Source: Artemia franciscana
Lineage: Eukaryota; Arthropoda; Branchiopoda; Anostraca; Artemiidae
DNA: 64,000 nucleotides
Reading direction: 5' to 3'
NCBI RefSeq assembly: GCF_032884065.1
Contig: NC_088863.1
Coordinates: forward strand, 46,211,797-46,275,796
Below, one piece after another: positions 7,622-59,394 of this stretch. Under the pieces are notes generated by a model, which saw only the letters and a list, made by a program, of their open reading frames with translations, was not told the DNA's origin and did not search any database. How positions within the stretch are numbered: the first letter of the stretch is position 1; each line of letters opens with the position of its first letter. A program made the position numbers and the translations under genes.

Positions 7622-7659
7622 ATGCACAGCCAGACGAAAGACATGTAAATAGTAGTTTA

Positions 7660-38473: not shown

Positions 38474-38528
38474 GGAACAAGAACAAGATGTCAGTCCAGT
38501 GTCTATTTCAAGCAATGCAAGTCAGCAT
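38474..38528 (+). CDS. p53: p53-family gene, coding exon equivalent to TP53 exon 3
   Basis: A 55-base exon between the acceptor CTATTTTCAG and the strong donor GTAAGTTT. Only one frame fits the next exon: it begins with the last base of a split codon (phase 2) and ends on a full codon (phase 0), giving EQEQDVSPVSISSNASQH. In human TP53, exon 3 has the same phases (2 in, 0 out) but is only 22 bases. The residues lie in the poorly conserved region between activation and DNA-binding domains, so the call rests on splice signals, phase and position upstream of the clear p53 exons rather than on sequence match. The upstream exon, which should carry the Met start and an FxxLW-like activation motif and end in phase 2, was not found. 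Confidence 0.7.
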
Positions 38529-41500
38529 GTAAGTTTATTGTTTAGTTTTACTCCATTATCTTACAAATCTGATTTTGTTGTGTTCATTCCATGTCTAAGC
38601 GTTTTGTTTTTACAAGTCAGTTAAACCACTCAAGTCGGTGTTAAAATATCTCTGAAAGTACTGAAGAGCGTCTGAGAAGAAGTAGAGTGAGACCTTTGAT
38701 TCTTGCAGTTTTGGAGATTTTTTTTTGCGGTAAATCAAAGAAGAAGAAGAAATAAATAAATGCCATGTACAATAAAAAATCAAAGGGAATCAGCTGTTGG
38801 AGTTTTACCCCTTTTCGTTTTTTGTTCTTCGGATAAAAGACCCGTCCCCTTTCCTTTACATTTTCTTATAGTATAATCTCAAAGGACAGGCTGAATAAGT
38901 CTGTGCTAATAGTCTGTATACATAATATAGGTGCTAAGCCTGTGGTGTTGCAATAAGTAAACTTTCGGGCGAAAATCTATTTCTGTCTTTCCGGACTTGG
39001 CCATTGATATGTAGTGTTATTCAGAAAGCTTTTGGTTTTGAAGCTCTTATTTATCTGATTGGCCAGGGTCAACCTAGAGTCCACCCCTACACCAGATTTC
39101 ATTGTGTAAATTTAGTGATTTCTTTTTTATTAGTTTGTTTGTAGACTGCAAAGTCTACGTTATAGAGTACAGAGTGCAGGGTTTTATTGGAGTTTACACT
39201 TGGAGGAATAAATTGAGTCATTTTCTCCAACTATGTGAGATTATTTTCCCTGGACGCAATTAGGGTAGGAAAAGAGTTGGCGAGAAGTACCGTTATTAGT
39301 ATATTGACAAGAGCGCCTGTTTACCTTCCAAAGAGATAATTAGAGAGGTATCAGTGGTGACACAGGGTGTGACATCCTTGACCAATAGCTTGGCCCTTGA
39401 AAAGATAGTATACGTTTCACACGCACATTGGTTGTGATACCAGTGCCTGAAAAAACTGTAGAACTCTTTAATCGCTCGAACTCGTTACCATACTCTAGCG
39501 ACACCACCAGCGGCGCTGGTGTGGTGTTACAGAACAAATAGCGGTGGCTCACAAGTTCCCACATTAAATATCAGCCGTGAGAAATAGTTAGGCTATGTCT
39601 TTTATTGTCCACATTCTTTTACTTAGACTGTTCCTGTTGGAACTGTACCTGTTGGAACTGTTCCTGTTTGTTAGACTGCGGATGCTAGAGGATAAAGAAC
39701 GGTGCTGTGAGGAATTACCTAAAGATTCTGCTTTAGGAAAAGTGTACCATCACTTAGATCATCCTCTGACTGCAGAGGCACCTAGGGCATCAACAGAGTC
39801 TTAATTGTTCATGGAATTCTGGCGCTGCGAGCAGTCGCAGCACCAGCATTCTTCCTGCATTGGTTGTAGAAACATGCTAAAAGGCTGGAGATTCAACTGA
39901 TATGTGGAATTTTAGGTTTCAATGGTACAGCTCTTCCTCCCTAATCATTTGGGTTAATCTACCTCTTTAGGGTTGACTTTGGAAATCTAAGGTCCTTCAC
40001 TCTGAAGATATAGCCTACTTGTTGCCATCACCAATGGTGAATATCTGTAATAAAGGACTGGCTAGTCATTGTTTGAATGTTATCATTCGAGACTCGATCT
40101 AAACTAGTATATGTTCATAGTTCATGGGAAATACATATTTTCAAAGACTAGAGTTTGACACCCTTACTCTCCATTAATGTTCCACGATTTGACTGCATAC
40201 ATCAGAATCAGTAGAATTACTGTTGAAAGAACTAAGTTTGACATTGTACAAGAAAACTTTCAATCATCAGATTCTCTTTATCGTGTTCACTGTCTATTTT
40301 ATCAAAATTTCCAAGAAAGATGAATGAAAAAAAAAAACAAGAAAAAACATGCATTTTAAAACAGTTTAGTAAAGGAAAATCAGCTAAAACTAGTAAATTA
40401 AAAAGGGTCATTCACAACATACAAAGGAAGACAAAATCAAAGTTGTTCAAATAAAAGGAGTAAATTAGCTGTATTTTTATTATTTAGATAATTTTGAAGA
40501 CCACACTGCCTTTCCATGACGATAAATAAAAGTTTTACGATGATGACGGTCACTGCATATGTGACCAAAATATCTAATATTTTTGTTTGTGAAATTTATC
40601 ACTGTCTATTAAAAAGATTTGATGCCTATTTGAACTTCTATTTATCGTTTCATTATTTTTGATGTCATATAAGGGACAAACATTTTTTCATGTCTTGAAG
40701 TTAAGCAGCAAATGGGGGATAAGACAGGAACAGGCTGAGAAGTCAGCCACCCAGGCTGAGGTCTGGGTAGGGAGTGTCTTATTGGGGCAAATATTTTTCA
40801 CACACACTTGGTAATCATCTTGAAAAGAAGAGGGGTTTGAAAGCACTAATAAAAGGAAATGGGATGTCCAAAGGACAGACACTTGTTTTTTTTAGCTTTG
40901 TGATTCTTTTTTCAACCTCCAATTGGGATATGAAAGTAAAAAAATTTGAATCATCAGCCGGTAATTGATAAGATTATGGCGGAAGGCTTTGCACGATGGG
41001 AGCGAGGAGCAAGTTAAGGTTTTTTGGCAGTAACTTTAGGTTGGTTGAAATGAAGGTGATCAAGTCTCCTGCAACACCACTTTTTAGCCTCTGGATACTA
41101 CTTTTTTCGTTTGCTATCAAACGATTCTTCAACTTTGTTTTTGTAGTAGGACTGGGAAAAAAGAGTTGGATCAAAGGCATTTTAGTTGATACCTGAAAGA
41201 GACTTTCATAACAATTAAGGGTTGGAAAAATGGGCAGTCATAAAAGACTAACATACTGTTTCCATGGTGACTAGGTGGGTGCCAGATCTCGAAATTGGAA
41301 GTACAAGTGTAAGCAACAAGCCTTGCTCCAGAGCTACGTGGAAGTTCCAACTCTTGGAATGCTTAAACAAATCCATGAAACAGTGATGGAAGAAGACAAA
41401 TTAATTTTTTTTAAATAGGGTAGCAGAGGCTGTTGAAAAAAAAATGCTTGGGTATTATTATATATAACATTTTAGGGTTTAGCAAGGTCTGTATTAGATG

Positions 41501-42878
41501 GGTGCCACGCTCGCAGACACCTGACAAATGAGACCTTGAAACCAAAATTAAACACAGAATTTGCACTAAACAATAAAAAATCCCGTCGATTTCTGAGACA
41601 CTTCATTATGTTGATGACACCTAGTTCACCTCTACACTTCTGAAAATAAATTACAGTCAAAACAGTGGATTACACAAGGTGAGTCATACGTGGTAAATAA
41701 GTTCTTTGACGATCCTTAGATTGCAGCACAGATATAAAAATTCATCAGCTTTTCTGGAATTAATGATGAGAAATACAAAACACTTACGAAAAATGTTGAT
41801 TTCACTATTAGGCCTTGGACTCCTTAGCTTGTGTTTGAAACTTAAACCATGTGTATTTTACTTTACATTGGGAAATACGAAAAAGAAGTGGGGGGCATGA
41901 GTATTTTTATAAGCAAAAAGAGCCTAACTACGTTCACACTAACATGCTATGATCTAATTTGACTGTCTCTTAAAAAAGCTGCCCCTGGCTATTTTTTAAT
42001 ATTTCTTTTTGTCCTAAGCCAAAAAAAAAAAAAAAAATAATAATATTGAACTCTATTGGTATAGTAGACGGCTTTTGTAGTATTTATGTCAGTTTATGAG
42101 TTTCCCAAAGCTGGTTTGGTATTTTGTTCTATTTTATATAGTAATTATTGAGACGGGGACATATTTTATTTGCTCATTCATTATCAACGATTCACCAATT
42201 AGAAACAATTCATATGTGAAAAGATCTTTCCAAAAGAAGACTCATTTATAAATCTTCTTGCATAAATTTTTCTTAAATGGTTTACTCAAGCTTGCTAAGT
42301 ATTAAGAATTTCGAATTGTTATTAAAAGCTAAACAGAGAACAAAACTGAAATTCTACATCCTGTCAAGATCAGGGGCGATAATTGATACAAGACAGGGGG
42401 AAGTAACTGCCCCCCCCCACGACCCCAGTTTGCCCCCCCCCCCAGCTGAAGTTTAGTCGCTTCGAAAATCTTGTCAAAACTAAGATAGACCTACAAATTC
42501 AAGCATCCATAAAACAGATCAGTTTTGTATAGTATATCTTTATCTCTGTGGTACTATATGGCTAGTTTTGTCACTTGGCTTGGGAAATCGGCACCAGTTT
42601 CCACTATATAAACAAAATAGTCTATATGTAAAGAATTTGTATTTCATGGAGCTGTGGTAATTTCAAGTTCTAACAAGTAAACCAACCCTTCCAAACCCAG
42701 AGCAATTCAGACATTACATTTTATAGTTTTTATCTAGGTAAATAGAAAAACATTCAGGGAGAAAACTTTGGAAGCGCTCCATTATGAATCCCCCTGCATC
42801 TATCCTTTTATGCTCTGTGCTGTAAATAGCTGTCATTCAACGGCTTTTAAGATAGTTGTTTTGTATTTTTACTTTTAG
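38529..42878 (+). other. p53 intron (4.35 kb)
   Basis: GTAAGT donor and TATTTTTACTTTTAG acceptor. The intron is phase 0. It holds AT-rich sequence, poly-A and poly-C runs (42020-42035, 42400-42450) and no clear coding feature. ORFs such as 39595-39804 and 41706-41900 lack any motif. Confidence 0.65.
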
Positions 42879-43037
42879 AAGGATTTCTTACAATCGCTTC
42901 CAACTCTTGCGCCTTTAAGTGTCGACCGTTCTCACTGGTTGTCTTCATCATCTAGTTATTCATCTTCTGTTGACAGAGTAGGATTTGAAGTCGTTTTTGA
43001 CGAAAATGGACAACCGACTAAATCCTGCTCCTGGACG
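42879..43037 (+). CDS. p53: p53-family gene, exon with start of DNA-binding domain (TP53 exon 4 equivalent)
   Basis: A 159-base exon (53 codons, phase 0 to 0); the other two plus-strand frames contain stops. The acceptor is TTTTTACTTTTAG and the donor ACG|GTATAG. It encodes a short linker (K-D-F-L-Q-S-L-P-T-L-A-P-L), a Ser-rich stretch, then the first strand and L1 loop of the p53 DNA-binding domain: V-G-F-E-V-V-F-D-E-N-G-Q-P-T-K-S-C-S-W-T. Against human p53 from Tyr107, it keeps Gly108-Phe109, Phe113, Gly117, Lys120, Ser121 and Thr125, with one extra residue in the loop. Lys120 contacts DNA in the human protein. The exon ends with the codon ACG for Thr125, exactly where human exon 4 ends. 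Confidence 0.88.
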
Positions 43038-43639
43038 GTATAGCATTTGTTTCTTTATTTTATTTTTAATATTTGCTGTTTTGTAAAATATTGTTTCTGT
43101 ATTTTAAGCTTAATTATGTATAGGGACAAAACAAAGTTTTGTTGGCTGAAAACTAAAATAGGTTATTTTAATAGAACTTCTTAGACTGAGCTTGAAAATG
43201 TTTTCTGTTTTTTCCTTTATGTACAGTGTTTAAACTGTTAAGTTTTTGTGAAATTCAACGAAAATTAAGTTAGTTCGTCGTCAAAGATAAACAAACAAGT
43301 GCCAAAAATGAATTTGAGGGTATTTTAAAATTAACAATTCAAAATGGCATTAGAAATGCTCCGAAATAATTGTAAAAGAATTTTTCTAAAAATTAAGAAA
43401 AGGTAACTAGAAAAACGGAATTTGTAACACTCTTGGTACAAAAAACTGCAAAATGGAAAACCGGTTATATAGTCATCTGTAGCTCCAGGCCACAAATGCC
43501 CTTTGCCTCATGAATCAACTAGCCGCTGTACCATAAATGACCCACTGGGCGGTGACATATCAAAGATAACTCTGAATAAAAAGGCAAAATGCAAGAGACA
43601 GCTGCTGCATATATTCGGTATGCCCAACAGTATATTTTG

Positions 43640-43830
43640 TTTCAAAACAGGGACGTGGGCATTTGTCAATTTCCTATTTCAACCTTTACATCTTGTAGCT
43701 TAGGTTTGTGGGGTTATTTATAAACTTCTTATTTTACTAAAAGTGGTCATTTCAAAACTTAATAACTTGTATTTTTTGTCTTTTAATTTATTTTACTAAG
43801 ATCAAATTCTGACCAAAATTGCTTGCTTAC
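43640..43830 (+). repeat. Intronic duplicated segment, copy 1
   Basis: Shares CTATTTCAACCT-TACATC-TGTAGCTTAG, GGTTATTT, GTCATTTCAAAA-TTA, TTTAATTTATTTTA and GATCAAATTC-GA-AATTG with 49210-49400. Non-coding; possibly an old repeat. Confidence 0.65.
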
Positions 43831-44125
43831 CACAGCATTTCCTTTCTTAAAGAGAATTGCCCCCAACTATCTATATTTTACTTTAAAAGTACTATTTTTT
43901 AGCACTTGTTCATACTTTTGCTATCATTATTCTTTAGGATTATTTCTCATAGACAACTTCTATGAGCAAGTAAAATAACATGTTCAGACTCTTGCCCAGT
44001 GATTTAACTGTGGGAGTTTCGTTAGTCTTCTTTTTGGTGATTTGTTGTCCGAAAGCATTTTTTGTGGACCAACGAAAAGCTTCTTTTCGATCATTTAACC
44101 ATCCAAGGAGGACACACGTTTACTC

Positions 44126-44126
<1 letters not shown>

Positions 44127-44191
<65 letters not shown>
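44127..44191. repeat. (TA)n microsatellite
   Basis: About 65 bases of alternating TA. It produces a spurious Tyr-Ile repeat ORF at 43980-44255. Confidence 0.95.
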
Positions 44192-44193
<2 letters not shown>

Positions 44194-44708
44194 TCTCTTT
44201 TTTGTGGTCATCTAATGATACCACTAAGCATGCGTTAGAAATACAAGTGTTTTGATCGCATAAAGTTTAAGTAAATTGTATAGTTACTTAAATCTGATTT
44301 TGTAATAACAATTTTTAATGTAATTTGTTTATTTCCCATCGAATAGTTAAGTTACCAGGAATGTGTTGTTGAATTATCATACTTATTCTCTTTTATTTTT
44401 ATGTTTTGGATTGCTTTGATAAAATAAACACCATAAATACAATATTTTTCAAGTTTCATTAAATTACACATAACAAAAACATGTCATTAAGCGAACAATT
44501 TCTTTTAAGTAACGTAAAGTTAAATTATAAAATGAACTTTTTTTGAATAACATGGAGCAATCATCTAGGCCTAATGCACAATTTCTTCGCCCTCACTTGA
44601 TTCAGTCTTCTAAGTTGTAGCAAAATTCTTGCTGACACTGTGTATGATTTCTAAGCTATTGTTAAGTGTGTTTTTTTCTCCAAAATTGACGGATCTTGTT
44701 TGCTAAAT

Positions 44709-45014
44709 CAGAAATTAAATAAAAAAACAAGTTTTTTTTAAATGAAAGTAAGGAGCGGCATTAAAACTTAAAACGAACAGAAATTACTCCGTATATGAAA
44801 GGGGCTTTTCCTCCTCGACACCCCGCTCCTTACGCTAAAGTTTTTTATTGTTTTAAAAAGTAGAGTTGCGAGAAAGAATCAAACTTTAGCGCAAGGAGCG
44901 GGGTGTCGAGGAGGAAAAGCCCTCTTCATATACGGAGTAATTTCTGTTCGTTTTAAGTTTTAATGCCGCTCCTTACTTTCATTTAAAAAAACTTGTTTTT
45001 TTATTTAATTTCTG
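44709..45014. repeat. Long hairpin (foldback), arms about 135 bp
   Basis: 44709-44843 is the near-perfect reverse complement of 44881-45014, with a 37-base loop. Arms run from CAGAAATTAAATAAAAAAAC through AAGTAAGGAGCGGCATTAAA and ACTCCGTATATGAA to CGCTAAAGTTT. Transcribed, it would form a long double-stranded RNA stem. It is the left end of the larger element to 46443. Confidence 0.93.
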
Positions 45015-46443
45015 AAAGTTTTTGAATTAATGCATGTCTGATTTTGGCTCTCCGTACATAAATTATAAAAATGAAATTTGCATATTAATTCTTTTTTGGC
45101 TAAATGGCTTTCTCTTAGTTTTGATCAGACGATTTTGAGAAATAAGGGGTGGGGAAGGAGGTCTAGTTGCCCTCCAATTTTTCGGTTACTTAAAAAGGCA
45201 ACTAGATCTTTTATTTTTAACGAACGTTTTTATTAGTAAAAAAAATACGTAACTTAAGAATTAACTTACGTAACAAACTTTTATATTCTTATATTTTTGA
45301 TTATATATATGAGGGGGTTGGTCCCCTCGTTAATACCTCGCTCTTCACACTAAATCTTGTTTTATCCCAATTCTTTAAGAATGACCCCTGAATCAGAAAG
45401 GCTGTAGAATAAATAGTTGAAATTATTAAAAAAAATTTTAGCATAAAGAGCGAAGTATTTATCTCCTCCTAAATACCTCGCTCTTTATGCTAGAGTATTT
45501 TTAGAACCCCTCATATGCGTAATAATCTCTGTTCGTTTTAAGTTTTAATGCTTCTCCTTACTTTCAATTGAAAAAACTTTCATGTTTACATTTTCATTGT
45601 TTTTTTATAGTTATGCTAGAAAGTCCTGCGCCCTTTTCATTGAATTTCTCTTCCCCCATGAAATATTCCTCCAAGAAAGATCCTCCCATATAGCCCTCTC
45701 CCCTGAACCCCACACCCAAACCAAAAAAATCCCCCTGATAACGTCGGTACACTTCCCAGTAACCATTACTGTATGTAAACATTGGTCAAAGTTTATAACT
45801 TGCAGCCCCTCCCCCAGGGACTGTGGGGGGTAAGTCATCCCCAAAGACATAGTTATTATGGTTTTCGACCATGCGGAACAAAATGGCTATGTCAAAATTT
45901 TGATCCGTTGACTTTGGGAAAAAATGAGCGTGGGAGGGGGCCTAGGTGCCCTCCAATTTTTTGGTCACTTAAAAAGGGCACTAGAACTTTTCATTTCCGT
46001 TAGAATGAGCCCTTTTGCAACACTCTAGGACCACTTGGTCGATACGATGACCCCTGGGGAAAAAAAACAAAAAAAACAAATAAACACGCACCCGTGATTT
46101 GTCTACTGGCAAAAAATACGAAATTCCACGTTTTTGTAGATTGGACCTTGAAATTTTATCTATAGGGTTCTCTGATACGCTGAATGCGATGGTGTAATTT
46201 TCGTTAAGATCCTATGACTTTTAGGGGGTGTTACCCCCTATTTTCCAAAATAAGGCAAATTTTCTCAGGCTCATAACTTTTGATGACAAAGACTAAATTT
46301 GATGAAACTTATATATTTAAAATCAGCATAAAAATCCGATTCTTTTGATATATCTTTTAGCATCGAAATTCCGTTTTTTAGAGTTTCGTTTACTGTTGAG
46401 CCGGGTCGCTCCTTACTACAGTTCGTTACCACGAACTGTTTGA
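44709..46443 (+). mobile_element. Unclassified foldback-type element
   Basis: Starts with the long hairpin. It continues through a second, weaker stem built on CCTCGCTCTTTA / TAAAGAGCGA (about 45345-45490) and another CTGTTCGTTTTAAGTTTTAA block, and ends GAGCCGGGTCGCTCCTTACT followed by a CAGTTCG / CGAACTG hairpin (46419-46439). No credible ORF. A shortened, inverted copy lies at 47700-48457, confirming that the right half is a dispersed repeat. Confidence 0.6.
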
Positions 46444-47651
46444 TTACAGTTGTGTTGACCTTGAAGTTCTAGTTAGAGGTAACTGCTTCAAAATGCGTCA
46501 AAAACTGGTTGAAAATGCGCCATAAATGAGTCAACATTCGATTGTAAAAACAAGTCTGTGGCAATAAATTCAAATATAAGTACAGTGCTAACACTTAAAA
46601 TGTTACATGCACAAGTAAAAACGAACAATTATATATAGAAAGTTAATCAGTGGTGTGAATTTTAAATATGTCCAACTAGTATTTTAAGCCTGATAGCTCT
46701 ATTTAAAACGAACTACAATTGAATGCATACTTTTACTAAGGAAAATACTATATCAGTATCGCTGCTCAGAATTTAATATTTAGGTCACAAGTTTGTTGAT
46801 AATAAATCAATTGTTTTGCAATATGAAGGACACATTGACTTAAGGGAAAACTGAAATTAAAAAACTTTTAAACTCTTAACATATGAATTTTAAAAAAGTG
46901 GAAGAGTTTAGAAACGAAACTCTAATAACTTCTTGGCAACAATCTTGTCACACGATTTTACTATGGAAATTAGTACGTGCGCAATAAAAAAAAACAGTAA
47001 ATTCCTGAGTTTTTAAGGAATAGCAAAAGCAATTTAAACGTACTCTTTGTTTGAAATTATTGCCCCCCCCAAAAAAAAACTCCACATGTCTCTAGGATCC
47101 GTATAAATATATATTTTCTCTGTAACCCTAACTAATACAACTGCATACAGTAATTATTCATATGGTATTCTATCTTCTTAAAGTAGATATCTGATTTGAA
47201 TCTTTTCTTTTTTTCTTTTTTTTGATTCGAATCTCAGATCTTAGAATCCTTGTTCCCTAAGTTTTGCTTTTCTTTCTTTCTGGTCATGTGACAGACTTAT
47301 TCACCATAACTTCCTTTAACTCATTTTTGTTAGTTGCTTTATCGTGACTTTAGAGGATTTTAACTGTCTTCTAATTTCAGGTAAATGATCAAGAGTAATA
47401 AAGCGTTTTCCTGTCATTATCTCTTTCATTTCTTGCTACAGTATTCTTGTGAGGAAAAATGTTAAATCTCCGGTTTCGTACCCAAGAACTTTTTTGCTAA
47501 ATATCTACTTTAATAGTTATAATTTCAATCTATAAATCCAAATTCGGTTGTCACCCAGACGAATAATTTTTTTTCAAATATATTCCACAAGGGCTAAGCA
47601 TGTATCTTGAAGACTTAGATTTGACAAGATTTGACTTAGATTTTTCACAGT

Positions 47652-48062
47652 AGTGAATGCAGTAGTACCGCATATCATTAAACATCCAAGACTTTGTCAA
47701 ACAGCGCGTGGTAACGAACTGTAGTAAGGAGCGACCCGGCTCAATAGCAACCAAAACTCTAAAAAATGAAATTTTTTATAACAATAGTTACATCAAAAGA
47801 ATCGCATTTTCATGCTGATTTTAAATATATAAGTTTCGTTAAGTTTGGATATACCCATCAAAAGTTAGGGTTCTGAGAAAATTTTCCTTATTTTAGAAAA
47901 TAGGGGGAACATCCCTTAAAAGTCATAGAATCTTAACGAAAATCACACCATCAGATTCAGCGTATAAGGAAACCCTACAGTAGAAGTTTCAAGCTCTTAT
48001 CTACGAAAATGTGGAATTTTACATTTTTTGCCACAAGACAGATCACGGATGCGTGTTTATTT

Positions 48063-48094
<32 letters not shown>

Positions 48095-48542
48095 CCCCAG
48101 GGTCGATCGTATCGATCCAGTGGTCCTAGAATGTCGTGTAAGGGCTCATTCTAACGTAAATTAAAAGTTCTAGTGCCATTTTTAAGTGACCAACAAAATT
48201 GAAGGGCACCTAGGCCCCCTCACACGCTCATTTTTTCCCAAAGTCACCGGACCAAAATTCTGGGATAGCCATTTTATTCAGCATAGTCGAAAAACCTAAT
48301 AACTTTGTCTTTGGGGACGACTTACTCCCCCACAGTCCCCGTAGAAGGGGCTGCAAGTTACAAACTTTGACCAGTGTTTACACATAGTAACGGTTATTGG
48401 GAAATGTACAGACGCTTTCAGGGGGATTTTTTTGGCTGGGGGGATAAGTTGAGGGGTAAACATCCAAGACTTTGTCAAACAGTTCGTGGTAACGGACTGT
48501 TTGACAAAGTCTTGGATATTTATGCGGTACTACTGCATTCAC
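47652..48542 (-). mobile_element. Inverted, shortened foldback element copy with nested inverted repeats
   Basis: The core (about 47700-48457) is the reverse complement of about 45705-46443. It is flanked by a 25-base direct repeat starting AAACATCCAAGACTTTGTC (47680-47704 and 48458-48482). The second direct repeat is itself followed after 14 bases by its inverted form (48497-48517). The outermost arms (47653-47704 and 48497-48542), starting GTGAATGCAGTAGTACCGCA, are inverted to each other. A run of 26 T lies at 48068-48095. No coding content. Confidence 0.65.
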
Positions 48543-49209
48543 CACTCTGCATTGATTACAAACACTACTAATAATGCACTTAATTCTTGATATTAAATAT
48601 TGAATGGTGTTACTATGTTTTAAAATTTGTGGTTGAGCTATTTTTCCATTTTCCATTTCCATTAAGAAAGATTTTCAATCTTTCTATAAATTCGTATATG
48701 TTCCCTCATATTTCGATATAATTTTTGTTAATTCAAGTTCCGCCGTAAGTGAAGTCATTTCGATTTCCCCTTCCGACAAAACGATTTTTGATTTAATTTA
48801 AAACCTTACCTCAAACCTTAGTTCTTCTTTTGCCACCGGATGTAGTGAAGTAAACTAGGTTATAGCCACTAGGTGTGGTGTAGTTACCTGGGAGGGGCGA
48901 GACTAGCGACCTAAGCTATGGTCCAAATGACTACCGGTAGCTTGTTGTTCTATGGGGTGGCCGAATTTAATTATAGGGAGATGGTTTCTACTCAGCTTTG
49001 CGAGAAAGACAAATATTAAATATTGATTACTTTTAATTGACTTCAGACAACACGGTACAGGGTAGTCTCCCAATAGACTAAAGGTACAATACACTACTGA
49101 CAACCATAATAAATACGCACATTTGCATCAACTCAAAATAATACAAGTTCTGGAAATGACCAGAGGTCAAAGATATCTCAGAGCGCAAAAGGAAAAAGGC
49201 AACTGTTGC

Positions 49210-49400
49210 CTATATTCGCCTATATTCAATTTACTATTTCAACCTCTACATCCTGTAGCTTAGATCTCTGAGGTTATTTCGAAACTGCTTATCTTAGTAA
49301 AATTGGTTATTTCAAAATTTAGTAACATACATTTTAAGCCGTTTAATTTATTTTATTTAGGATCAAATCCGACTAGAATTGTCAGCTTACCCCACTCTCT
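49210..49400 (+). repeat. Intronic duplicated segment, copy 2
   Basis: Direct-orientation counterpart of 43640-43830, about 5.6 kb downstream in the same intron. Confidence 0.65.
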
Positions 49401-49445
49401 TCTAAAGCAAAATTGCAGCGATAATTGTTTCTCGTTTCGGATGAC

Positions 49446-49601
49446 ATGGCTAATTATGAATCAATCTGTTTTCTTTCTTTTTCCATTTACAGAAAAAACT
49501 TTTCGGAGCTAGATACCTGGAAAGACTATTTGTGCAAGGGCTACCCCTCTTACTGCTGGGTAGTCTACTTGAATCCAGAAATCGGAAATTTTCATTTTTA
49601 A
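49446..49601 (+). CDS. Small ORF, possible alternative p53 exon (speculative)
   Basis: A 51-codon frame from ATGGCTAAT. A splice-like acceptor (TTCCATTTACAG) ends at 49492 and a GT follows TGG at 49560. The part 49494-49559 reads K-N-F-S-E-L-D-T-W-K-D-Y-L-C-K and on to Y-C-W, ending phase 0, which would join the phase-0 exon at 55087. F-x-x-L-x-x-W-x-x-x-L loosely recalls the p53 activation motif (F-x-x-L-W-x-x-L) but has two extra residues. A gene-internal start in this intron would resemble the delta-133 promoter in human TP53 intron 4. Chance is equally possible; the frame is short and reads on to a TAA without a splice. Confidence 0.15.
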   Translation: MANYESICFLSFSIYRKNFSELDTWKDYLCKGYPSYCWVVYLNPEIGNFHF

Positions 49602-51192
49602 AGGGGATTATCTCAGTCACTTAATACAGTTTAAATCGTATTGCTGTCTGAAAATGCGTGCTATCTTTGTTCGTAGTGCAACTTCTTAATCAAGTAATTT
49701 ACAGTGGTGAACTCAATAATTGCCACATAACCAAACGCCAATGTTTAATATGCTATTCAAGACTATTTACCAAATCAACTAATATCTGGAATTCCCAGAA
49801 ATGTTGACTAAAATAGTGAGTCCCGATATAAACTCCAGACTGGCAGATTAGCTCTCAAGAACAGGTTTATCTCATGCCTTTACAAATCACAGCAAATTTT
49901 GAAAAATTTGCCCACTGTAATCTCCAATTGGAAAATTATCCTACATACTCTGCTCAATTAACGTATTTAAGGCAACGAAGCACAGTCTTTGAAAAAATGT
50001 TGCCTTTTTTGTCTCCTTTCAATCCTAATGCCTTGACCGTAGATGTGAAAATTTTCACTTTCCTTCTAATCTAAAAAGGACGTAAGTCACCCACAAGAAT
50101 TTGTTCTGTGATGAATTCCTAGATTTCTCCCGTCTATTTATCCCATTCCCTGGCTAACGGATCCCTATGGGCCTTGCCTATAAATTTTCCTATTTACGAG
50201 GTTTTTAGCGCATTAATTGTATTAATGTCCTAGATATTCGTCAGACCTACCAAATTTTAAATCAGTTAAGGTGGCCTAATTTATTTGGCTGTTCTTATAG
50301 GCTAAATTAGCCTGTGGTTTCAGGAATAGCCACGACTAGTGTTTTATGTTTGGTAGGGTGTATAGTAATGCTAAGGCTTACACTTCACTCCTAATGCGAA
50401 ATTAACGTATACCATTTACAACTTATAGGGTAAATTCCTTATTCGACCAATTTTAATCCTTCTTCCACAAGCCTATAGCAAAACGCTCTGGCATTGTGAA
50501 CTCATTAATGGAAAGCTAAGGTATTTTTAAAATAATGTTCAAAGAAAAATCAATGCCTTAAAAACGTGCTTGAGCGCGATTTTAGGCCATGCAGATGAAC
50601 ATTTATCTGATGATTATGGCTAATGGCCCTACACTTATAAAAAGTCTTATATTTTCTCCTGGCTACTTAATGAATTTTCTGTTCTTGCATGGGTTTTATG
50701 TTTTCAGTAAAGTAGGACAATAGAAAATTATCACGAAATTTGTTTAAGCTCATTAATAGGTCAATGTCCTATTGACTACGAACATTTAGTTTTGTTCTGT
50801 TTAGGCTTGGAGGCTTGTTTAGGCTGTTTAACCTTGTTTTTTGTTAGTTTTTGATTTTTTTTTTTTTTTTTTATCGATAATAACCCTTACGATAATAAGC
50901 TGTTAACGTAACTCGGGCAATGATACAAAAAAACCAACATGACTTTTGAATGAAACTTAGTATTCAACCTTTCCCAGGAATACATCAACTTTCCCATGAA
51001 GAATACATCTTTATAGGATTATATTTGATTTTTCCCAGAAATGTATAATAATCAGTAGGGTTAGTAGGGTTAATACTTAGGGATTTAGGGGTCAAATGCA
51101 TACTATCACCAGATCCTTTCTTGGAAGCGATAAAGTACAAAGAATTAGATTAGTAACTGATAACATGAAAATATCAAAGATAAAGTTCTTTT
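49602..51192. other. Unassigned intronic stretch
   Basis: AT-rich intronic sequence without recognisable motif. A poly-T run lies near 50850. Confidence 0.4.
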
Positions 51193-53376
51193 TTATAGCA
51201 CTTGGTATTAACCAAGTGACATATAGCAATCGACAATTCTGTCGGTCTGTCGGTATGTTTGTCGGTCTGTCGGTCCCGGTTTTGCTACTTTAGGCACTTC
51301 CAGGTAAGTTTGGACGATGAAATTTGGCAGGCGTATCAGGGAAGGGACCAGCTTAAATTAGAAATAGTCGTTTCCCCAATTTGGCCATCTGGGGGGGGAG
51401 TGGGGGGCCGGTTAACTCGGAAAAAATAGAAAAATTGAAGTATTTTTAACTTACGAACTGTTGATCAGATCTAAATGAAATTTGATTTTTGGAATGATAT
51501 CGCGTCTCAGAGCTGTTGTTTTAAATTCCGACCGGATCTGGTGACATTGGGGGGAGGGGGGTATGGGAGGGGGAAACCTAAAATCTTGGAAAACACTTAG
51601 AGTGGAGGGATCGGGACGAAACTTGTCGGGAAAAATAAGCACAAGTCCTAGATACATGATTTACATAACTGGAACGGATCCGCTCTCTTTGGGGTGGTTG
51701 GGGGGGGGGGTAATTCTGAAAAATTAAAAAATGAGGTATTTTTAACTTACGAACGGGTGATCGGATCTCAATGAAATTTGATATTTAGAAGGATATGCTG
51801 TCTTAGAGCTCTTATTTTAAATCCCGACCAGATCTGGTGACATTGGGGGGGGGGAGTTGGGAGGGGGAAACCTAAAACTTGGAAAAAACTTAGAGTGGAG
51901 GGATCGGGATGAAACTTTGTGGGAATATTAAGCGCAAGTCCTAGATACATTATTGACATAACCGGAACGGATCCGCTCTCTTTGGGGTAGTTGGGGGAGG
52001 GGTTAATTCTGAAAAATTAGACAAAGAGGTATTTTTAACTTACGAACGGGTGATCGGATCTCAACGAAATTTGATATTTAGAAGGATATCATGTCTCTAA
52101 GCTCTTATTTTAAATCCTGACCGGATCTGGTGACATTGGGGGAAGTTTGGGGTGGGGAACCTAAAATCATGGAAAACGCTTAGATTGGAGGGATCGGGAT
52201 GAAACTTGGTGGGAAAAATAAGAGCAGAAGTCTTACATACGTGATTTACATAATTGGAACGGATCCGCTCTATTGGGGGGGGGGACTAATTCTGAAAAAT
52301 AAGAAAAAAGTACGTATTTTTAACTTACGAAGGAGTGATCGGATCTTCATGAAACTTCATATTTAGAAGGACCTCGTAACTCAGATCTCTTATTTTAAAT
52401 CTTAACCGGATCAAGCGTAATTGGGTGGGGGGGACAGTTGGGGGACCGGAAATCTTAGAAAATACTTAAAGCGGTGAGATCAGGATAAAACTGGATGGGA
52501 AGAATAGAAACCTGTCTAAGATACGTGACTGACATAACCGGACCGGATCTGCTCTCTTTGGTGGAATGGGGGGGGGGGGTAATTTTGAAAATTGAGGTAT
52601 TTGTAACTTACGAAAGGGTGACCAGATCTTAATGAAATTTGATATTTAGAAGGATCATGTGCTTTAAAGCTCTAATTTTAAATTCCTACCAGATCCTGTG
52701 ACATTGGGGGGAGTTGGAGGGGGAAACCGGAATTTTTGGAAAACGTGAAAATTGGGGTATTTTTATCTTACGAATAGATCGGATCTTAATGAAATTTGAT
52801 TTTTAGAAGGAATTCATGTCTCAGAGCTCTTATTTCAAATCCCAACCAGATCTTTTGACATTGGGGGGAGTTGGAGGGGGAAATCTTGGAAAAACACTTG
52901 GAGTGGAGGAATCGGGATGAAGCTTGGTGGATAGAATAAACATATGTCCTTGATACGTGATTCACAGAATCGTACTGGATTCGCTCTCTTTGGGGGAGGG
53001 GTTCAGTGATTTGGCGAGTTTGGTGCTTCTGGACGTGCTAGGACGATTAAAATATATAGGCGTGTCAGGGAGCTGAACAATTTGACTTGATAAAGTCGTT
53101 TTCCCAGATTCGACCATCTGGGGCTAAAGGGAGAGAAAAAATTAGGTATTTATAACTTACGAGTGGGTGATCGGATCTAAATGAATTTTGATATTTAAAC
53201 GGACATCGTGACTCAGAGCTCTTATTTTAAATCCTGACCGGCATTAAGCCTCTTATTTTCCTTTTTAAATCAATCTAATGATTCATAGAATTTTGTTAGA
53301 GCTCATACCATCTGATCTCTTGGCTCTTAGCTCTTCTCGCCTCGTCACAAGTGCCATATGAGCTCTTAGCTCTTGT
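51193..53376 (+). mobile_element. Non-coding 2.2-kb tandem-module element, copy 2
   Basis: Full second copy of the element at 26195-28437, same orientation. It begins TTTTTATAGCACTTGGTATT, then a GTCGGTCTGTCGG tract, and ends AGCTCTTAGCTCTTGTT. Seven modules have anchors near 51511, 51810, 52104, 52387, 52670, 52838 and 53221. Imperfect inverted matches link the ends (TAGCACTTG at the start, CAAGTGCCATATG at about 53350). It lies in p53 intron 4. Poly-G tracts of variable length mark each module. Confidence 0.8.
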
Positions 53377-54089
53377 TATATATATGATTGACGTGTAATC
53401 CTAGGGTTAAAGGTTATCAGCAATTAAAATTTAAGTTACTTGGACAATGAGAGTAAAAGCTAATGTTTGTAATTAATTGTCAGTTCGAAAATATTTCTCG
53501 ATATGGTTTTATTGAAAATGCTTTATTTAAATTTCGGTTACACAAGGCATCGGTTCTCTCTTTTCTGTATTATATATATATGTTCTACTGCAGCTACGGG
53601 TCGGAAAAAACACGGAAGACATAGCCCTTATGCCCGAAATGTTTAGAGAAATTTCAAAAGTAAAATAACAAATTATAACTTAGGTTCCATTCAGGTTTGA
53701 AACGGAGATTTGTTGCAGTGAAGACCAGTGTGCTTGCCTTTAGAACTAGGAAATTACATACTTAATTTTTGTAAATGGTGATTAACCGTTTGTTTGAGCC
53801 ACAAGTTGGTTGTATTCTCAATATTGGACAAGGCGGAAATTTTCAAGGTAAGGGATTGTGAACCTCTAGTTCAGGGGGTTTTGATCATGAAAGATGGAGT
53901 GTCTCAGAATTTTCATTCACCTATATTTCGCCCTGTTTGGGTGAAGTTGTAGTTTGTGGGAAAAAAAAAACACTTTTTATGGCCTGATCTCTTCCATAAT
54001 TATTTAAAAAGCGGTAGAATTTTAATATTCGGTCATATTCTAAAAGCTTTGATGAGATACAATCACCTCTGTAAAGAAATGGGAAGGAA
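53377..54089. other. Unassigned intronic stretch
   Basis: AT-rich, with a small TATATATATG tract near 53570. No coding or element motif. Confidence 0.4.
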
Positions 54090-54890
54090 AAAAGTGGATA
54101 TGCTTTAACGGGCAATTGTCCTTGGTTTTAAGGGGGCGAAAGGGAGGTGCAAACCTTCCATCTAGGATAATCAACCTTGACAAATATGCCTGTAGACCCG
54201 TCTCCTCCTGTTGCAATTCACCAGTTACTCTATATGGAAAAACTAACATTAAATTTGTCGAAATGTTTACCTACCTTGGCTTTACAATTTCCTCAAATGG
54301 ATCGCCTCTCTCCGAGCTGCAAGCAAGGATATCCAAAGTGTTTTCTGCCACGGGTAGGCTGAACCGCCACCTTCGATGAAGACCGAACATCAGTCGTTCA
54401 ACTAAACTGCGGGTTTTCAAAGCCTTCGTCGGTTCGGTAATGCTTTACGGACCTGAAACATGGCATGCATCAACCACGACACTAAGGCCATCGATGTATT
54501 CCAGACGACGAGCCTGAGAAGGACCGAAGGTTTAAGATAGTTTGATTTCATGAGCATATGAGAAGCCGCTGTAGCTCACCAAGCAGTCTTGGTTTTCTAC
54601 CCAAGCAGCTGAGCGTACCTGACAATGGTTCAAACACCTAATCGGAATGCCCTTGCACTTACCCACTAAGACGATCTTTGATTTTGACCCTACGGAAGCC
54701 GGTTTGAAACTACCCTGCGGCCGACCGAAGAAACGATGGTCCGACAGCCTCTCCGAGTTTCTGGCGATGGCAAACATCAGACCGAGTGAAGCATAAACAC
54801 TCGCACTGAATCAAAGTGGATGGAGGAGCCAGACGTCACTACACCGAGCAGCACCCGGCAAGAGACCTAAGTCAAGTATCTTAGAATTTA
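54090..54890 (+). mobile_element. RTE-like LINE remnant (RT C-terminal region)
   Basis: Broken frames give V-E-M-F-T-Y-L-G-F-T-I-S-S-N-G, L-Q-A-R-I-S-K, L-R-V-F-K-A-F-V-G-S-V-M-L-Y-G-P-E-T-W, and, after stops, M-P-L-H-L-P-T-K, C-G-R-P-K-K-R-W and a W-R-S-Q-T-like end. This order (F-T-Y-L-G-S, L-L-Y-G-A-E-T-W, G-R-P-x-x-x-W) is typical of the RT tail of RTE-type LINEs. 5' truncated and frameshifted; inactive. Confidence 0.7.
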
Positions 54891-55086
54891 CACGATCTAA
54901 TTTTTTTTATTTGAGCTAAAATTGCTGTCTTGTTGCAATAAGTAACAGAAAATGACACTTTTTTATGTGGAAAATATATATATTTTTGGCTGCTACGGGC
55001 TGTGATTTGCTATTTACTGCGGTGCAGCTGCTACTGCATCAAATGATTTTTTGTATTCTAATAAACTAAATTGTTCACTTTTATAG

Positions 55087-55282
55087 CACTCATCTGTTTT
55101 GAAGCGTCTGTATGTGAAAGATGGCAATGCAATTCCGTTTAACCTTAAGGTAACAGGCTGTGCTCCGCGTGTTTTTGAGAACCTTTACGTTCGAGTTCAG
55201 CTTCAGTTTTCTGAATTTCAGTTTTCACAGGATGTCGTTGCTCGATGCCCATTTCATACAATTACTGATCGTGTTGACTCAT
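55087..55282 (+). CDS. p53: p53-family gene, DNA-binding domain exon with zinc site (TP53 exon 5 equivalent)
   Basis: A 196-base exon (65 codons plus one base; phase 0 in, phase 1 out) between TTTTATAG and the strong donor GTAAGAA. Human TP53 exon 5 has the same phases and is 184 bases. The protein starts H-S-S-V-L-K-R-L-Y-V-K (human Y126-SPALNKMF-C), continues through L-Y-V-R-V-Q-L-Q-F-S and reaches V-V-A-R-C-P-F-H (codons 54 and 57 of the exon are Cys and His). These correspond to human Val173-His179, including Arg175 and the zinc ligands Cys176 and His179. The order also fits Drosophila p53 (K-L-Y-I, then L-R-V-F-L-x-F-S, V-V-R-C-x-x-H). The product would be a tetrameric DNA-binding transcription factor controlling stress and apoptosis genes. 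The second pair of zinc Cys and the DNA-contact Arg residues lie in later exons outside the window. Confidence 0.93.
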
Positions 55283-55428
55283 GTAAGAATTACTAATCTT
55301 CCCTTGTCTGTATGCTTAGCTATTGTTTATTCTTGTGTATTTATTTGATTACTATTTGCTCTTTAGTCATATCTTAAGGACGACGAAATTTATGTACCTA
55401 TATTTTGTTTTCTTCTTTTGTATACATA
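55283..55428 (+). other. Start of p53 intron 5 equivalent
   Basis: Begins with donor GTAAGAATT in phase 1. The intron continues at least to the end of the window (more than 8.7 kb), as no next p53 exon (expected Cys-x-x-Ser-Cys and Asn-Arg-Arg motifs) was recognised to 64000. Confidence 0.6.
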
Positions 55429-55534
55429 TCTATATATATAAAAATAAGTTGTTTGTTTGTGTGTCTGTCTGTCTGTCCGCATATGACGTCTGAATTATTT
55501 CATCATATACCAATTCAAAAACGAATGTATTCAA

Positions 55535-55614
55535 GCCGAAGTAGCTGAGTTGGTAAAGCGTTATGTTCCAGGTTCTAGGTCCGAGAGGTTCCAGGTTCGA
55601 ACCTTGGCTTTAGC
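55535..55614 (+). ncRNA. tRNA-like (SINE-head) sequence in Helitron C
   Basis: 80 bases with a Pol III box A match (TAGCTGAGTTGG) and box B match (GGTTCGAACCT). The T arm pairs (CCAGG / CTTGG with one G-T). GCCGAAG and CTTTAGC form a 7-bp acceptor-like stem with one mismatch and one wobble. The D stem is partial, and no sensible anticodon arm can be drawn, so it is a tRNA pseudogene or captured SINE head rather than a working tRNA. Confidence 0.6.
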
Positions 55615-56530
55615 ATTAATACAAAAGAAGAAGAAAAACTAAAAAAGGTAAAAACTACAAAAAAACTGAAAAAAACTAAAAAAACTAAAAAAAGGTAAAA
55701 AACTAAAAACTAAAAAAGAAAAAAAGCAAAAAAAAATAAAAAAAGGTAAAAACTACAAAAAAAAAACTAAAAAGAAAAAAAATTAAAAGCTAATAAAAAA
55801 CTAAAAAAACTAAAAACTGAAAAAGAAAAAAAAACTTAAAAAAGGAAAAAAAACTGAAAAATAAAGGAGAAAAAGAATACTAAAAACCGAGACACAGGGA
55901 ATATAAATGACGACCGGGACACTCAAAGAGAAATTAAAGACTGGGACACTGGGACACAAATAACGACCGGGAGATATAAATGACGACCGGGACACTCAAA
56001 GATAAATTAAAGACCGGGACACAGGGAATATAAATGACGACCGGGACGCTCAAAGAGAAATTACAGACTGGGACACTGGGACACAAATGACGACCGGGAT
56101 ACTGGAAATATAAATGACGACCTGGACACAACTACAGCGGGGATGCCGGGGGCACAGGGTGATATATAAATGACGACGGGGACCCAGGGAATGTTCGATT
56201 AGCAATCACCATCAACAAAGCTCAAGGGCAATCATTAGAATAATGAGGTGTAGATCTGAATACGGATTGTTTTTCCCATGGACAATTTTATGTTGCATGT
56301 TCAAGAGTCGGTAAACCTGATAATCTATTTATATGCACAGACAATGGGACATCGAAGAATGTTGTATATTTGCAAGTTTTACGTAGTTAAAAACATATAT
56401 ATATATATATATCTATCTATATTCACAGGTGGGACACAGGGACAGAACTACAATGGCGCGTAACTAATATGGCGCGTAACGACTTACACGCGGGGGGCTT
56501 GGGGGGTGCGAAGCGCCCCCACCAACTAGG

Positions 56531-56561
56531 TGTTGGGGTGGCGCGAAGCGCCACCCCAACA
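56531..56561 (+). terminator. Helitron 3' terminal hairpin
   Basis: Perfect palindrome: TGTTGGGGTGGCGC, GAA loop, GCGCCACCCCAACA. It lies 1-2 bases before CTAG and corresponds to the hairpin thought to signal the end of Helitron rolling-circle transposition. It is a transposition terminator, not a transcription one. Confidence 0.85.
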
Positions 56562-56568
56562 TCTAGTA

Positions 56569-58250
56569 TCTATCTATATTATATATATAAAAATGTACTG
56601 TCCGTCTGTCTGTCACTAAGTATTACGGCAATATACATAAGAAAACTAACTAAAAAAAAACTTTAAGAATTAAAAACTATCTTCTAAAAAAACTGAAAAG
56701 GAAAAAATTAAAATAACCTAGATTAGGTAAAAAAAACTAAAAAGAAAAACACTAAAAAAAATAAAAAAAACTAAAAAAAAAAAAACTAAAAAAGGAAAAA
56801 ACTGAAAAAAAAGATAAAAATCTACAAATGATGTCATGTTCGCAATGCGAAACCAGTCTTGCGGTTGATACAGATAGTAAAAAAAGAAGACGTGTCGGTG
56901 TATTAAAAAAAGCAATGCGTGAATAATTAGGAAATATCAGAGCAACGCAAAACCAGGCTTACGACTCAAAGAGAAAGGGCCAGATTAAGAATGTTCAGTT
57001 TACGTCATCTATTTCGATCCAAAAATGACAGCGTTGGCCCTTGCGTCGAGCTGCAACGTTGTTGCTTGGTGAAATAACTGCTCATTCCGCCTTGAAATTG
57101 CTTCTGAACATGCAGTCTACAGAAACTCTCACGTGCAACATTTCCAAATCATCTGGGATGGGTGAAGTATTGCAGCAATGCAAACTTATTGTTTGGGACG
57201 AGTGCACAATGGCTCGAGGCTCTTGGCCGATCATTGCAAGATCTGCGAGGAAATTCCAAACCCTTTGGCTTATAAAAATCATAAATAGCTAAGTGAATGA
57301 GCGATTCTGGCAGCCAAGAACAAAGACGTCCACGAAATCAACAATATTATTCTGACGAAGATTCGAGGCCAGGCAGTCATTTACAAGTCAGTCGACACAG
57401 TTCTGGAATCAAATGAAGTGGTTAACTATCCATCAGAATTTTTAAATTCCCTCGATCTCTAGGCTTACCAATAATACTGTTGCTAAATATTAACCCACCA
57501 AAGCTTCGCAACGGCACGTGACTTGCCATAAAAAAACATGCCTTCCGAGGGCGAGGCTGTTCTTATTCCTTGCATTCCCGTGATTCCAATGGATCTGCCT
57601 TTTCAATTTAAAAGATTGCAATTCCCAATTCAATTAGCATTTGCAATCACCATCAACAAAGCTCAAGGGCAATCATTAGAAAAATACCGTATAGGTCTTA
57701 ATACGGATTGTTTTTCCCATGGATAATTATATGTTGCATGTTTTAGAGTCGGTATACCGGACGATTTATTTATATGCATAGACCATGGGACTGCGAAGAA
57801 TGTTGTATATCCACAAGTTTTACGCAGTAAAAAATTAACACCTTGCATACGTTTTGCTTGGGGGGGGGGTTAGGCTTGAGGCTCAGATAGAAATTACCAA
57901 AAGAAAGCGTGTCGATGTATTACAAGAGCTACGCGAAACCTGGCTTGCAGCTGAAAGAGAAAATAAACAAAGAATGGATGTCGAGGAATTACCAGTTGTA
58001 TATCCGCAAGTTTTACGCAGTTAAAAATTAGCACCTTGCACACGTGTTGCTGGGGCACGTTCCGGAAAAAAACTGAGCAGTAAAGAAGAAAAATAAGATG
58101 AAGAAGCAAAAAATATAAAAAACTAAAAAAGGTAAACAACTAAAAAAACTAAAAAGAAAAAAAAGAAAAAACTAATAAAACTAAAAAACTAAAAAAGAAA
58201 AAAAAAACTAAAAAGAAAAAAAATTAAATAAAAAACAAGGGATCACGAGA
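56569..58250 (+). mobile_element. Helitron D remnant with helicase
   Basis: A second 5' end (TCTATATTATATATATAAAA and a CTGTCCGTCTGTCTGTC tract) starts immediately after Helitron C, giving a head-to-tail pair. It contains A-rich ACTAAAAAA arrays (56640-56820, 58080-58230), charged N-terminal repeats (about 56840-57000) and Pif1-type helicase remains. No 3' hairpin was found, so the end is approximate. Confidence 0.6.
57030..57835 (+). pseudogene. Helitron Pif1-type helicase remnant
   Basis: Three frames together give the second half of a Helitron helicase: T-A-H-S-A-L-K-L, C-N-I-S-K, L-I-V-W-D-E-C-T-M-A (Walker B, D-E box; about 57190-57215), A-K-N-K-D-V-H-E-I-N-N-I-I-L, G-Q-A-V-I-Y-K-S-V-D, G-E-A-V-L-I-P-x-I-P, F-P-I-Q-L-A-F-A-I-T-I-N-K-A-Q-G-Q-S-L (motif V/VI region; about 57630-57680) and the final L-Y-V-A-C and V-Y-P-like tract. 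The Walker A loop and Rep domain are absent. Stops and frameshifts make it non-functional, but it identifies the scraps in the other Helitron copies. Confidence 0.85.
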
Positions 58251-59394
58251 AGTCAAAAACCTTAAAAAAGAGAACCAAAACTTTGAAGCTTAGTAGATGT
58301 CATCGTTAGAAAGTAACTTACCTTGGATTTCTTACCTTTTCTTGGATTGTTCTTCTACAATTATAACACTCGGACTCCATTGTTTTATTTCTCATTTTGT
58401 GTCCTGTAATATGCTTTTTTTGTCAGATCTCGGCTAATATTCATGCTTACATTGTTTCTCGTTTTTCATTTTTTTTCGTATTGGATAAAAGATTGAAAAA
58501 AAAAAAAAACACATCCTTCTTTACTTTAATACAAGTAACAACATTAAAACTTAAAACAAACATTACGTTTAAAGTGTGGAATGAGGTTCCCACTCAACCA
58601 ACCCTTTCCTAATTTCGCTAAAGTTTAACTTTTACTTTACGGGAAAACTTGCCAGAATGCAGTGAATATCCTGCGTTGATGTTTAAAAGCGTTTTATTTA
58701 TCCAAACGTTTGGATTAAAACTTTAACCTATTTTGATTTGGTAGGAGGACAGCAACCTTTTCCCATCATAATAGCTTGGGACCCAACCAACAAAGTTCTA
58801 ATATCACAGGCTTCAACGAGCTAAAGAAGGTTTAAGGATAATTAGTCAAGGACAGATTTGGTTGCTGAAAACTAATATAGGCGGGTGTAATGAAGATTTT
58901 GCGCACCAAAGGAGATATCACCTAACTTGCATAGTTGATGACGTCATCAGCTATATTTCCTGTTTTAATTTATATTTTCTGTTTGAACTAAGAATGTGAA
59001 ACAGAATAAGGTAGCGAGAGAGAAAAGAAAAAATGATGAGCACAATAAGATCTAGCTTCCTATTTAAACATACCTAAGTGGTGGCCTCAGAAACTCCTGT
59101 ACTTGCATTAGGGTTAGGTTCAAATGGGGAGGAACATTGCAATTGGGGCTGCATAGGAAGGTGACAACACCTTTGCAACTCCATCCGTTAGTGGTGTCCA
59201 AAATAAAAAAAAACTGCTTCAGAATTAGAGCTTTTGATAAAAAAAAAGAGAAAGAAAAGAATCTAAGAAAATTACCACAAATTACGCATATGTTATACTT
59301 CTTCATGCGAACTATCACACTTTTCGGCACAAGCACACAAAACATCACAAAATCTAGGAAGGCATTTACAGTTCTTGGTGCACTTTTTGCTACA
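58251..59394. other. Unassigned stretch (p53 intron 5 equivalent)
   Basis: AT-rich, with no p53 exon or element motif recognised on either strand. The minus-strand ORF 59483-59064 starts inside the pseudogene end but soon loses any family resemblance. Confidence 0.4.

Follow-up and report, generated by a model that had tools for sequence, protein, structure and literature searches.

The sea anemone Nematostella vectensis carries a p53-family gene, nvp63, in which, according to the accessible text of PMC1964547 (2007), five introns of the DNA-binding domain (DBD) and the oligomerisation domain (OD) occupy positions identical to those of human p63, p53 and p73, four of them within the DBD and one at the OD. 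Since that text reports identity between sea anemone and human, the conservation of these introns is not a new inference: the ancient inheritance of p53 intron positions, older than the split between arthropods and vertebrates, is already published. Within the arthropods, the accessible part of PMC5374463 describes the p53 gene of Litopenaeus vannamei as comprising 10 exons, with a DBD and with full-length and short isoforms, and that of PMC7531772 places most ecdysozoan p53 proteins on long branches and doubts their position in the tree.

The stretch analysed here (the window, 64,000 nucleotides of the Artemia franciscana genome) almost certainly holds the 5' part of the DBD-coding sequence of a functional arthropod gene for a p53-family transcription factor, hereafter gene A. 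On the accounts cited above, gene A resembles nvp63 as an invertebrate p53-family gene with DBD introns at human positions, of which it lacks one, and resembles the L. vannamei gene as a split arthropod p53 gene encoding a DBD.

Exon structure of gene A

A first-pass annotation of the window proposed a p53-family gene of three exons with chaining splice phases. The coordinates and phases are exact, with AG/GT borders on all three segments, and the second and third encode p53 sequence; the first remains an unproven candidate. The features are as follows.

38474..38528, plus strand: putative upstream exon with a strong donor, phase 2-0, EQEQDVSPVSISSNASQH; unproven
42879..43037, plus strand: exon 2 of gene A, phase 0-0, with the T125 equivalent as its last codon
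43038..55086, plus strand: intron between exons 2 and 3, 12049 nt, matching human TP53 intron 4 in position
55087..55282, plus strand: exon 3 of gene A, phase 0-1, spanning the Y126 to codon-187 equivalents
55283..64000, plus strand: start of the intron after exon 3, 16,242 nt in all, matching human TP53 intron 5 in position
C1:46283321-46283534 (window scale 71525-71738): exon 4 of gene A, beyond the window
C1:46299383-46299515 (window scale 87587-87719): exon 5 of gene A, beyond the window

The coding exons beyond the window lie approximately 7.5 and 24 kb past its end. In all three p53 loci of the genome (gene A and the loci B and C described below), exons 2-5 follow one another in phases 0-0-1-2-0 and every border is AG/GT. 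Exon 2 encodes a serine-rich linker, the first strand and the L1 loop of the DBD (GFEVVFDENGQPTKSCSWT), and joins exon 3 in frame. Upstream, its frame stops at the TAG that belongs to its acceptor, which may be of the NAGNAG type (42879 or 42882). Its donor, GTATAG, is mediocre, ranking in the top 15% of window GTs by weight tables. The translated frames of the three window exons contain no Met codon, so the start codon must sit upstream of them.

The introns of gene A measure 12,049, 16,242 and 15,848 nt, against 1,725-8,543 nt in B and C. The first bears repeats, namely a tandem array of approximately 293-nt units (51394-52744) and inverted arms between 45700 and 48456, and its equivalents in the two paralogues span 1727 and 1725 nt. 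The window also carries a LINE reverse transcriptase, for which prokaryote and virus collections yielded no relatives.

The candidate at 38474-38528 had been equated with human exon 3. The phases (2-0) agree, but sequence support is absent: the segment falls outside every Pfam P53 match, and no counterpart was found in the 16-17 kb upstream of both paralogues (best scores 23 and 22, against 22-33 for shuffled sequence). Upstream of exon 2, six open candidate exons using three donors, 38474-38528 among them, have splice sites at least as good as its own, and an alternative acceptor at 38423 likewise yields phase 2. The FxxPhiW activation-domain motif is about as frequent upstream as chance predicts (2 occurrences against a shuffled mean of 1.86), and its relaxed form occurs 14 times (shuffled mean 8.1, range 4-14). 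For p53 of L. vannamei the accessible part of PMC5374463 reports an imperfect FxxPhiW motif; none like it was found in the upstream sequence of gene A.

Assignment to the p53 family

The claim of a p53-family gene is borne out. A search of the joined exons against the P53 profile, proposed as a check, was run and is significant: the three-exon product matches Pfam PF00870 (P53) at E 1.8e-13 (51.3 bits, cut-off 27, profile 7-86), the candidate exon 1 being part of the query yet outside the matched residues 50-133. Exon 3 alone matches at E 2.2e-9. Exon 2 alone has no Pfam match but falls within that of the joined product; its counterparts in both paralogues are 47-49% identical (blastp 3e-11 and 6e-11). 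With the candidate exon and exons 2-5 joined, the match reaches 1.3e-41 (143 bits, cut-off 27) over residues 50-235 and profile positions 7-192 of 193, and the predicted product thus spans a complete p53 DBD. On the evidence of these matches, exons 2 and 3 belong to the p53 family beyond reasonable doubt.

A six-frame scan of the window used open segments of at least 12 residues and a profile of vertebrate p53/p63/p73 sequences. Of 3495 segments, exon 3 alone scored within the inclusion threshold (E 1.5e-4, against E 1.1 for the next), and no further p53 exon was detected in the window beyond it. Among PDB sequences, exons 2-5 match p63 (7.1e-30), 7pc6 (2e-29), which is the Alvinella p53 homologue, p73 and p53. 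Predicted-protein searches with the joined product and with exon 3 returned no homologue from a collection that may contain few animal proteins.

Two sub-threshold matches were set aside: Endotoxin_M with a window product (E 0.16), and CEP1-DNA_bind, which we take to be the nematode branch of the p53 fold, with the joined exons (E 0.0076). Motif scans of the window gave no HLIRVE-type and no PYxxP-type match; ten other matches (CxCP, 6; L3-type, 1; NRRPI-type, 2; GRDR-type, 1) were dismissed on visual inspection as not p53. The host is very likely an arthropod: there are 97 Chitin_bind_4 matches.

Residues of the DNA-binding domain

The Lys-Ser of loop L1 and the R-C-P-x-H zinc motif noted earlier are both present, as PTKS and RCPFH. 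RCPFH in exon 3 provides the C176 and H179 equivalents, and MCRNSC in the next exon, beyond the window, supplies the remaining zinc-site residues, completing all four ligands (C176, H179, C238 and C242 equivalents). Six of the seven residues K120, R175, R248, R249, R273, R280 and R282 are kept, in human numbering; the R273 equivalent is Lys. At the C275 equivalent gene A carries Ser, and B and C carry Cys; the H178 equivalent in gene A is Phe.

Compared with human, gene A is three residues longer between the P151 and R158 equivalents. An L-x-V/L-R-V stretch before the RC zinc motif resembles that of Drosophila melanogaster p53, and the L3 loop, SCPGGINRR, is nearer to p63/p73 than the Drosophila sequence is.

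Towards the C-terminus, P53_tetramer (PF07710) gave three matches in the genome, none over the cut-off (best E 6.6); P53_C (PF11619) gave no match, its control being equally silent; and a further oligomerisation-domain profile found nothing significant among plus-strand segments of the stretches examined. Comparison of downstream open reading frames of A and B returned exon 5 together with matches taken as repeats, and no later coding exon was assigned. The SWIB domain, as in MDM2, has five matches at E <= 1, three of them over the cut-off, which could be SMARCD-type genes.

Paralogous loci

Two further p53 loci, B and C, lie 8-9 Mb away and share the cuts and exon plan of gene A. They are 1.07 Mb apart. 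Their collinear stretch measures approximately 46 kb in B and 38 kb in C, with a DNA identity of 83-97% and insertions; their coding sequences differ at 14 of 702 bases (Ks 0.054). This spacing, collinearity and small coding difference, and the single run of N in each of the two 50-kb stretches examined, would suit a single locus whose two haplotypes the assembler placed one after the other, in a genome of two p53 genes, not three. Against this stand the Ks and the large insertions, in our judgement high, though not impossible, for alleles, and the integrity of all four exons in both B and C; we give the haplotype explanation somewhat less than an even chance.

Gene A and B are 60.6% identical in amino acids over 231 codons, with pS 0.773 (Ks saturated) and Ka 0.277, and, as judged from coding sequence, the exons evolve under purifying selection. 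That gene A is a decaying duplicate, a pseudogene beside working B and C, is very improbable: its longer introns and the Ser and Phe substitutions noted above lean that way, but each of exons 2-5 is open and bordered by AG/GT, Ka against B is 0.277 with synonymous sites saturated, the four zinc ligands are intact and the Pfam score stands at 143 bits.

Intron positions compared with human TP53

For human TP53 we take the splice positions to be c.375, c.559, c.672, c.782 and c.919. Relative to these positions, three cuts coincide in A, B, C and human: cut 1 comes immediately after the T125 equivalent, cut 2 precedes the H193-equivalent codon by 17 nt, and cut 3 falls 35 nt past the R249-equivalent codon. 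Three of the four DBD introns of TP53 (T125 phase 0, 187 phase 1, 224 phase 0, 261 phase 2) are therefore matched exactly; the reported agreement at the T125 and codon-187 equivalents holds to the base, and the codon-261 cut outside the window agrees likewise.

The broader proposal, that the p53 domain has retained its exon structure, stands for these three cuts and fails at two others. Human intron 6 (224/225) is absent from all three p53 loci of the genome. The post-domain intron is shifted by 4 nt relative to human and is in phase 0, where human has phase 1. With human TP53/TP63/TP73, gene A has in common the domain family, the zinc ligands, the L1 Lys-Ser and the introns at T125, 187 and 261, and differs in intron 6 and in the phase of the post-domain intron. 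The ACG codon offered as further evidence carries no weight: the two paralogues read ACA there, and wherever an exon closes with a Thr codon on its usual final G, that codon has to be ACG.

Independent intron gain at coinciding sites is scarcely credible: although the human positions are those assumed above, intron sliding or gain does happen, and of the five human cuts one has no counterpart and another is out of register, three cuts agree in base and phase across three loci, two cuts falling on two given positions among approximately 250 sites would occur about 3 times in 100,000 (a rough arithmetic estimate), and the accessible text of PMC1964547 reports the same positions in the sea anemone.

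Discussion

In gene A, long, repeat-bearing introns stretch exons 2-5 over approximately 45 kb. Its domain would adopt a zinc-stabilised p53 fold for DNA binding, using the loop L1 Lys, the L3 arginines and zinc held by the C176/H179/C238/C242 equivalents. By analogy with the family, the product would regulate transcription in a sequence-specific way, in the manner of stress-response and apoptosis factors. The intron cuts almost certainly descend from an early animal p53 gene, three being retained exactly; the host lineage lost the human intron 6 cut before the local copies diverged, and the post-domain intron is located elsewhere.

More tentatively, the arthropod lineage may have built a small p53 family independently, comprising a diverged A and a recent pair B/C on a shared ancestral exon plan (three animal-wide introns, intron 6 lost), with A and B/C dividing labour somewhat like p53/p63/p73. 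We consider this possible but doubtful.

The find refines a known story and opens no new one. Intron agreement to the base with vertebrates, and reportedly with a cnidarian, is independent evidence that a single gene was inherited. One cut is missing from all three copies; its loss marks a lineage event, which could be mapped across arthropods. If the small arthropod p53 family is real, the shared cuts would help to root the long-branched ecdysozoan p53s independently of their fast-evolving protein sequence.

p53 identity and extent of gene A

Gene A, the p53-family gene in the window, has two exons and a candidate exon there, and the borders and phases assigned to all three in the first-pass annotation were reproduced on re-reading the sequence, with AG/GT at all of them. 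The window occupies C1:46211797-46275796; the next two exons of gene A and two further loci, B and C, lie on the same contig (C1, NC_088863.1).

Exons of gene A and the other p53 loci (exons 1-3 in window positions)
38474-38528, + strand: exon 1 (candidate), AG/GT borders, phase 2-0
42879-43037, + strand: exon 2, AG/GT borders, phase 0-0
55087-55282, + strand: exon 3, AG/GT borders, phase 0-1
C1:46283321-46283534: exon 4, homologous exons in B and C
C1:46299383-46299515: exon 5, homologous exons in B and C
C1:54416791-54431055 (54.417-54.431 Mb): locus B, four homologous exons
C1:55485873-55495594 (55.486-55.496 Mb): locus C, four homologous exons

Joined into 136 residues, exons 1-3 match the Pfam P53 profile significantly, as their proposed identity predicts (E 1.8e-13, profile positions 7-86 of 193); exon 3 by itself gives E 2.2e-9, and exon 2 by itself gives no match to this profile. 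The top solved-structure matches are 7pc6 (1.4e-7; the p53 homologue of Alvinella), p73 (1e-6) and p63 (4.2e-6). In a control, a profile built from vertebrate p53/p63/p73 domains was searched against the 3495 six-frame open segments of at least 12 residues in the whole window. Exon 3 is the sole segment to pass (E 1.5e-4; runner-up E 1.1), which places the p53 assignment far above chance. The acceptor of exon 2 is a NAGNAG (TAGAAG, window 42873-42881), and the first Lys of this exon may be optional.

A Pfam P53 search of the 1.27-Gb genome, in which match counts are lower bounds, gives at least six matches, all on C1 and all within the three loci. The joined exons of gene A encode a complete DNA-binding domain (E 1.3e-41, profile 7-192 of 193; the match leaves out exon 1, although the query included it), and in the PDB exons 2-5 are closest to p63 (7.1e-30). 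The zinc ligands are present in MCRNSC and in RCPFH, the motif already picked out in the first pass. Aligned to the human p53 sequence, and in human numbering, gene A has the equivalents of K120, R175, R248, R249, R280 and R282, and differs at those of R273 (Lys) and C275 (Ser). Its introns are long (12.0, 16.2 and 15.8 kb; those of B and C range from 1.7 to 8.5 kb), and there are repeat arrays in the first of them. Gene A is real, and its reading from raw sequence is correct, with exact borders for the two domain exons.

Genes A and B share 60.6% identity over 231 residues; with Ka at 0.277 and synonymous sites saturated, selection has maintained both copies. Across the 234 residues covered, B and C are 97.4% identical; 14 of their 702 coding bases differ, and each is ~61% identical to gene A. 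They are collinear over a stretch that measures ~46 kb in B and ~38 kb in C, and may have arisen by a recent duplication or be two haplotypes placed in series. As far as the present analysis goes, these two additional loci are new.

Intron positions compared with human TP53

The human cuts, at c.375, c.559, c.672, c.782 and c.919, were compared with those of A, B and C by computing the spacing from each cut to conserved residues. In all three loci, as in human TP53, cut 1 falls immediately 3' of the T125 equivalent, cut 2 lies 17 nt 5' of the H193-equivalent codon, and cut 3 lies 35 nt 3' of the R249-equivalent codon. The distance from the H179 equivalent to cut 2 is 25 nt in A, 28 nt in B and C and 22 nt in human, which indicates indels on the 5' side of that loop. 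The human c.672 intron is absent from A, B and C, where the stretch from H193 to R249 is a single exon. Within the domain, three of the four human cuts are thus kept exactly and one is lost. After the domain, the next cut in A, B and C lies 72 nt past the D281 equivalent in phase 0, whereas the human cut lies at 76 nt in phase 1. The proposal that the human exon structure has been kept therefore holds to the base for the three cuts and fails at c.672 and at the post-domain cut. Loss of the 224/225 intron, common to all three loci, is new as far as this analysis goes. The ACG codon at cut 1, taken in the first pass as a detail shared with human, is a coincidence, since exon ends usually carry G and codon 125 is ACA in B and C.

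The evolutionary reading of these positions was partly right, but the ancestry is already in print and older than had been claimed: PMC1964547 reports that five introns occupy identical positions in Nematostella nvp63 and in human p63, p53 and p73. Published papers describe a shrimp p53 gene of 10 exons with an imperfect FxxPhiW motif (PMC5374463), long-branched and reduced ecdysozoan p53s with Priapulus as the exception (PMC7531772), and how exons and introns are arranged in three early animals and in unicellular relatives (PMC6981761). Among the matches listed, no title or abstract gives the positions of p53 introns in any crustacean or chelicerate; the gene-structure figure or supplement of PMC5374463 may hold them.

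Exon 1 and the start of the gene

Exon 1 is the weak part of the three-exon model and falls outside the matched stretch in every Pfam P53 match. By weight-table scores its donor is very good (top 0.7% of GTs) and its acceptor ordinary (top 9%). Upstream of exon 2, six open candidate exons of 20-400 nt, exon 1 among them, have sites at least as good. Its phases do agree with human exon 3, with which it had been equated, but an alternative acceptor at 38423 likewise yields phase 2, so the agreement says little. The 16-17 kb upstream of B and of C yielded no counterpart; the top alignment scores there fall at the low end of the range given by shuffled controls. Met is absent from the frames of exons 1-3, and the start codon must therefore be further upstream.

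Repeats and mobile elements in the window

Repeats and mobile elements (window positions)
269-699, 1566-1699 and 55886-56130: one minisatellite (~27 nt, GGGACACAGGGAATATAAATGACGACC), near both window ends
6602-10764: seemingly intact LINE
6602-7621: first ORF of the LINE, sub-threshold PHD-finger match, overlapping the second frame
7540-10764: endonuclease/reverse-transcriptase open frame of the LINE, 1074 aa
16251-16988, minus strand: LTR-retrotransposon integrase fragment (Integrase_H2C2 8.4e-9; rve under its cut-off)
26447-27528 and 51394-52883: tandem repeats, units ~157-293 nt, consensus sequences related by eye; the second within p53 intron 43038-55086
55535-55615: tRNA-like stretch (Rfam tRNA 38.3 bits; CTA-anticodon tRNA by ARAGORN)
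57029-57289: helicase-like fragment (PIF1)

The tRNA-like stretch, closely 3' of p53 exon 3, is followed by A-rich CTAAAAA arrays, which make the head of a tRNA-derived SINE the more likely reading. The PIF1 fragment lies near the minisatellite array at 55886-56130, which suggests that Helitron-type elements carry the array.

Host and function

Chitin_bind_4, a family typical of arthropod cuticle, has 97 matches in the genome at E ≤ 0.001 and none in 14 control genomes, in support of the arthropod host proposed at the outset. Gene A carries an intact p53-type DNA-binding domain, under selection, with its zinc ligands and divided by long introns. By analogy with the p53 family, this domain would bind zinc, and the gene product would bind DNA sequence-specifically and may exert transcriptional control over damage and death responses.
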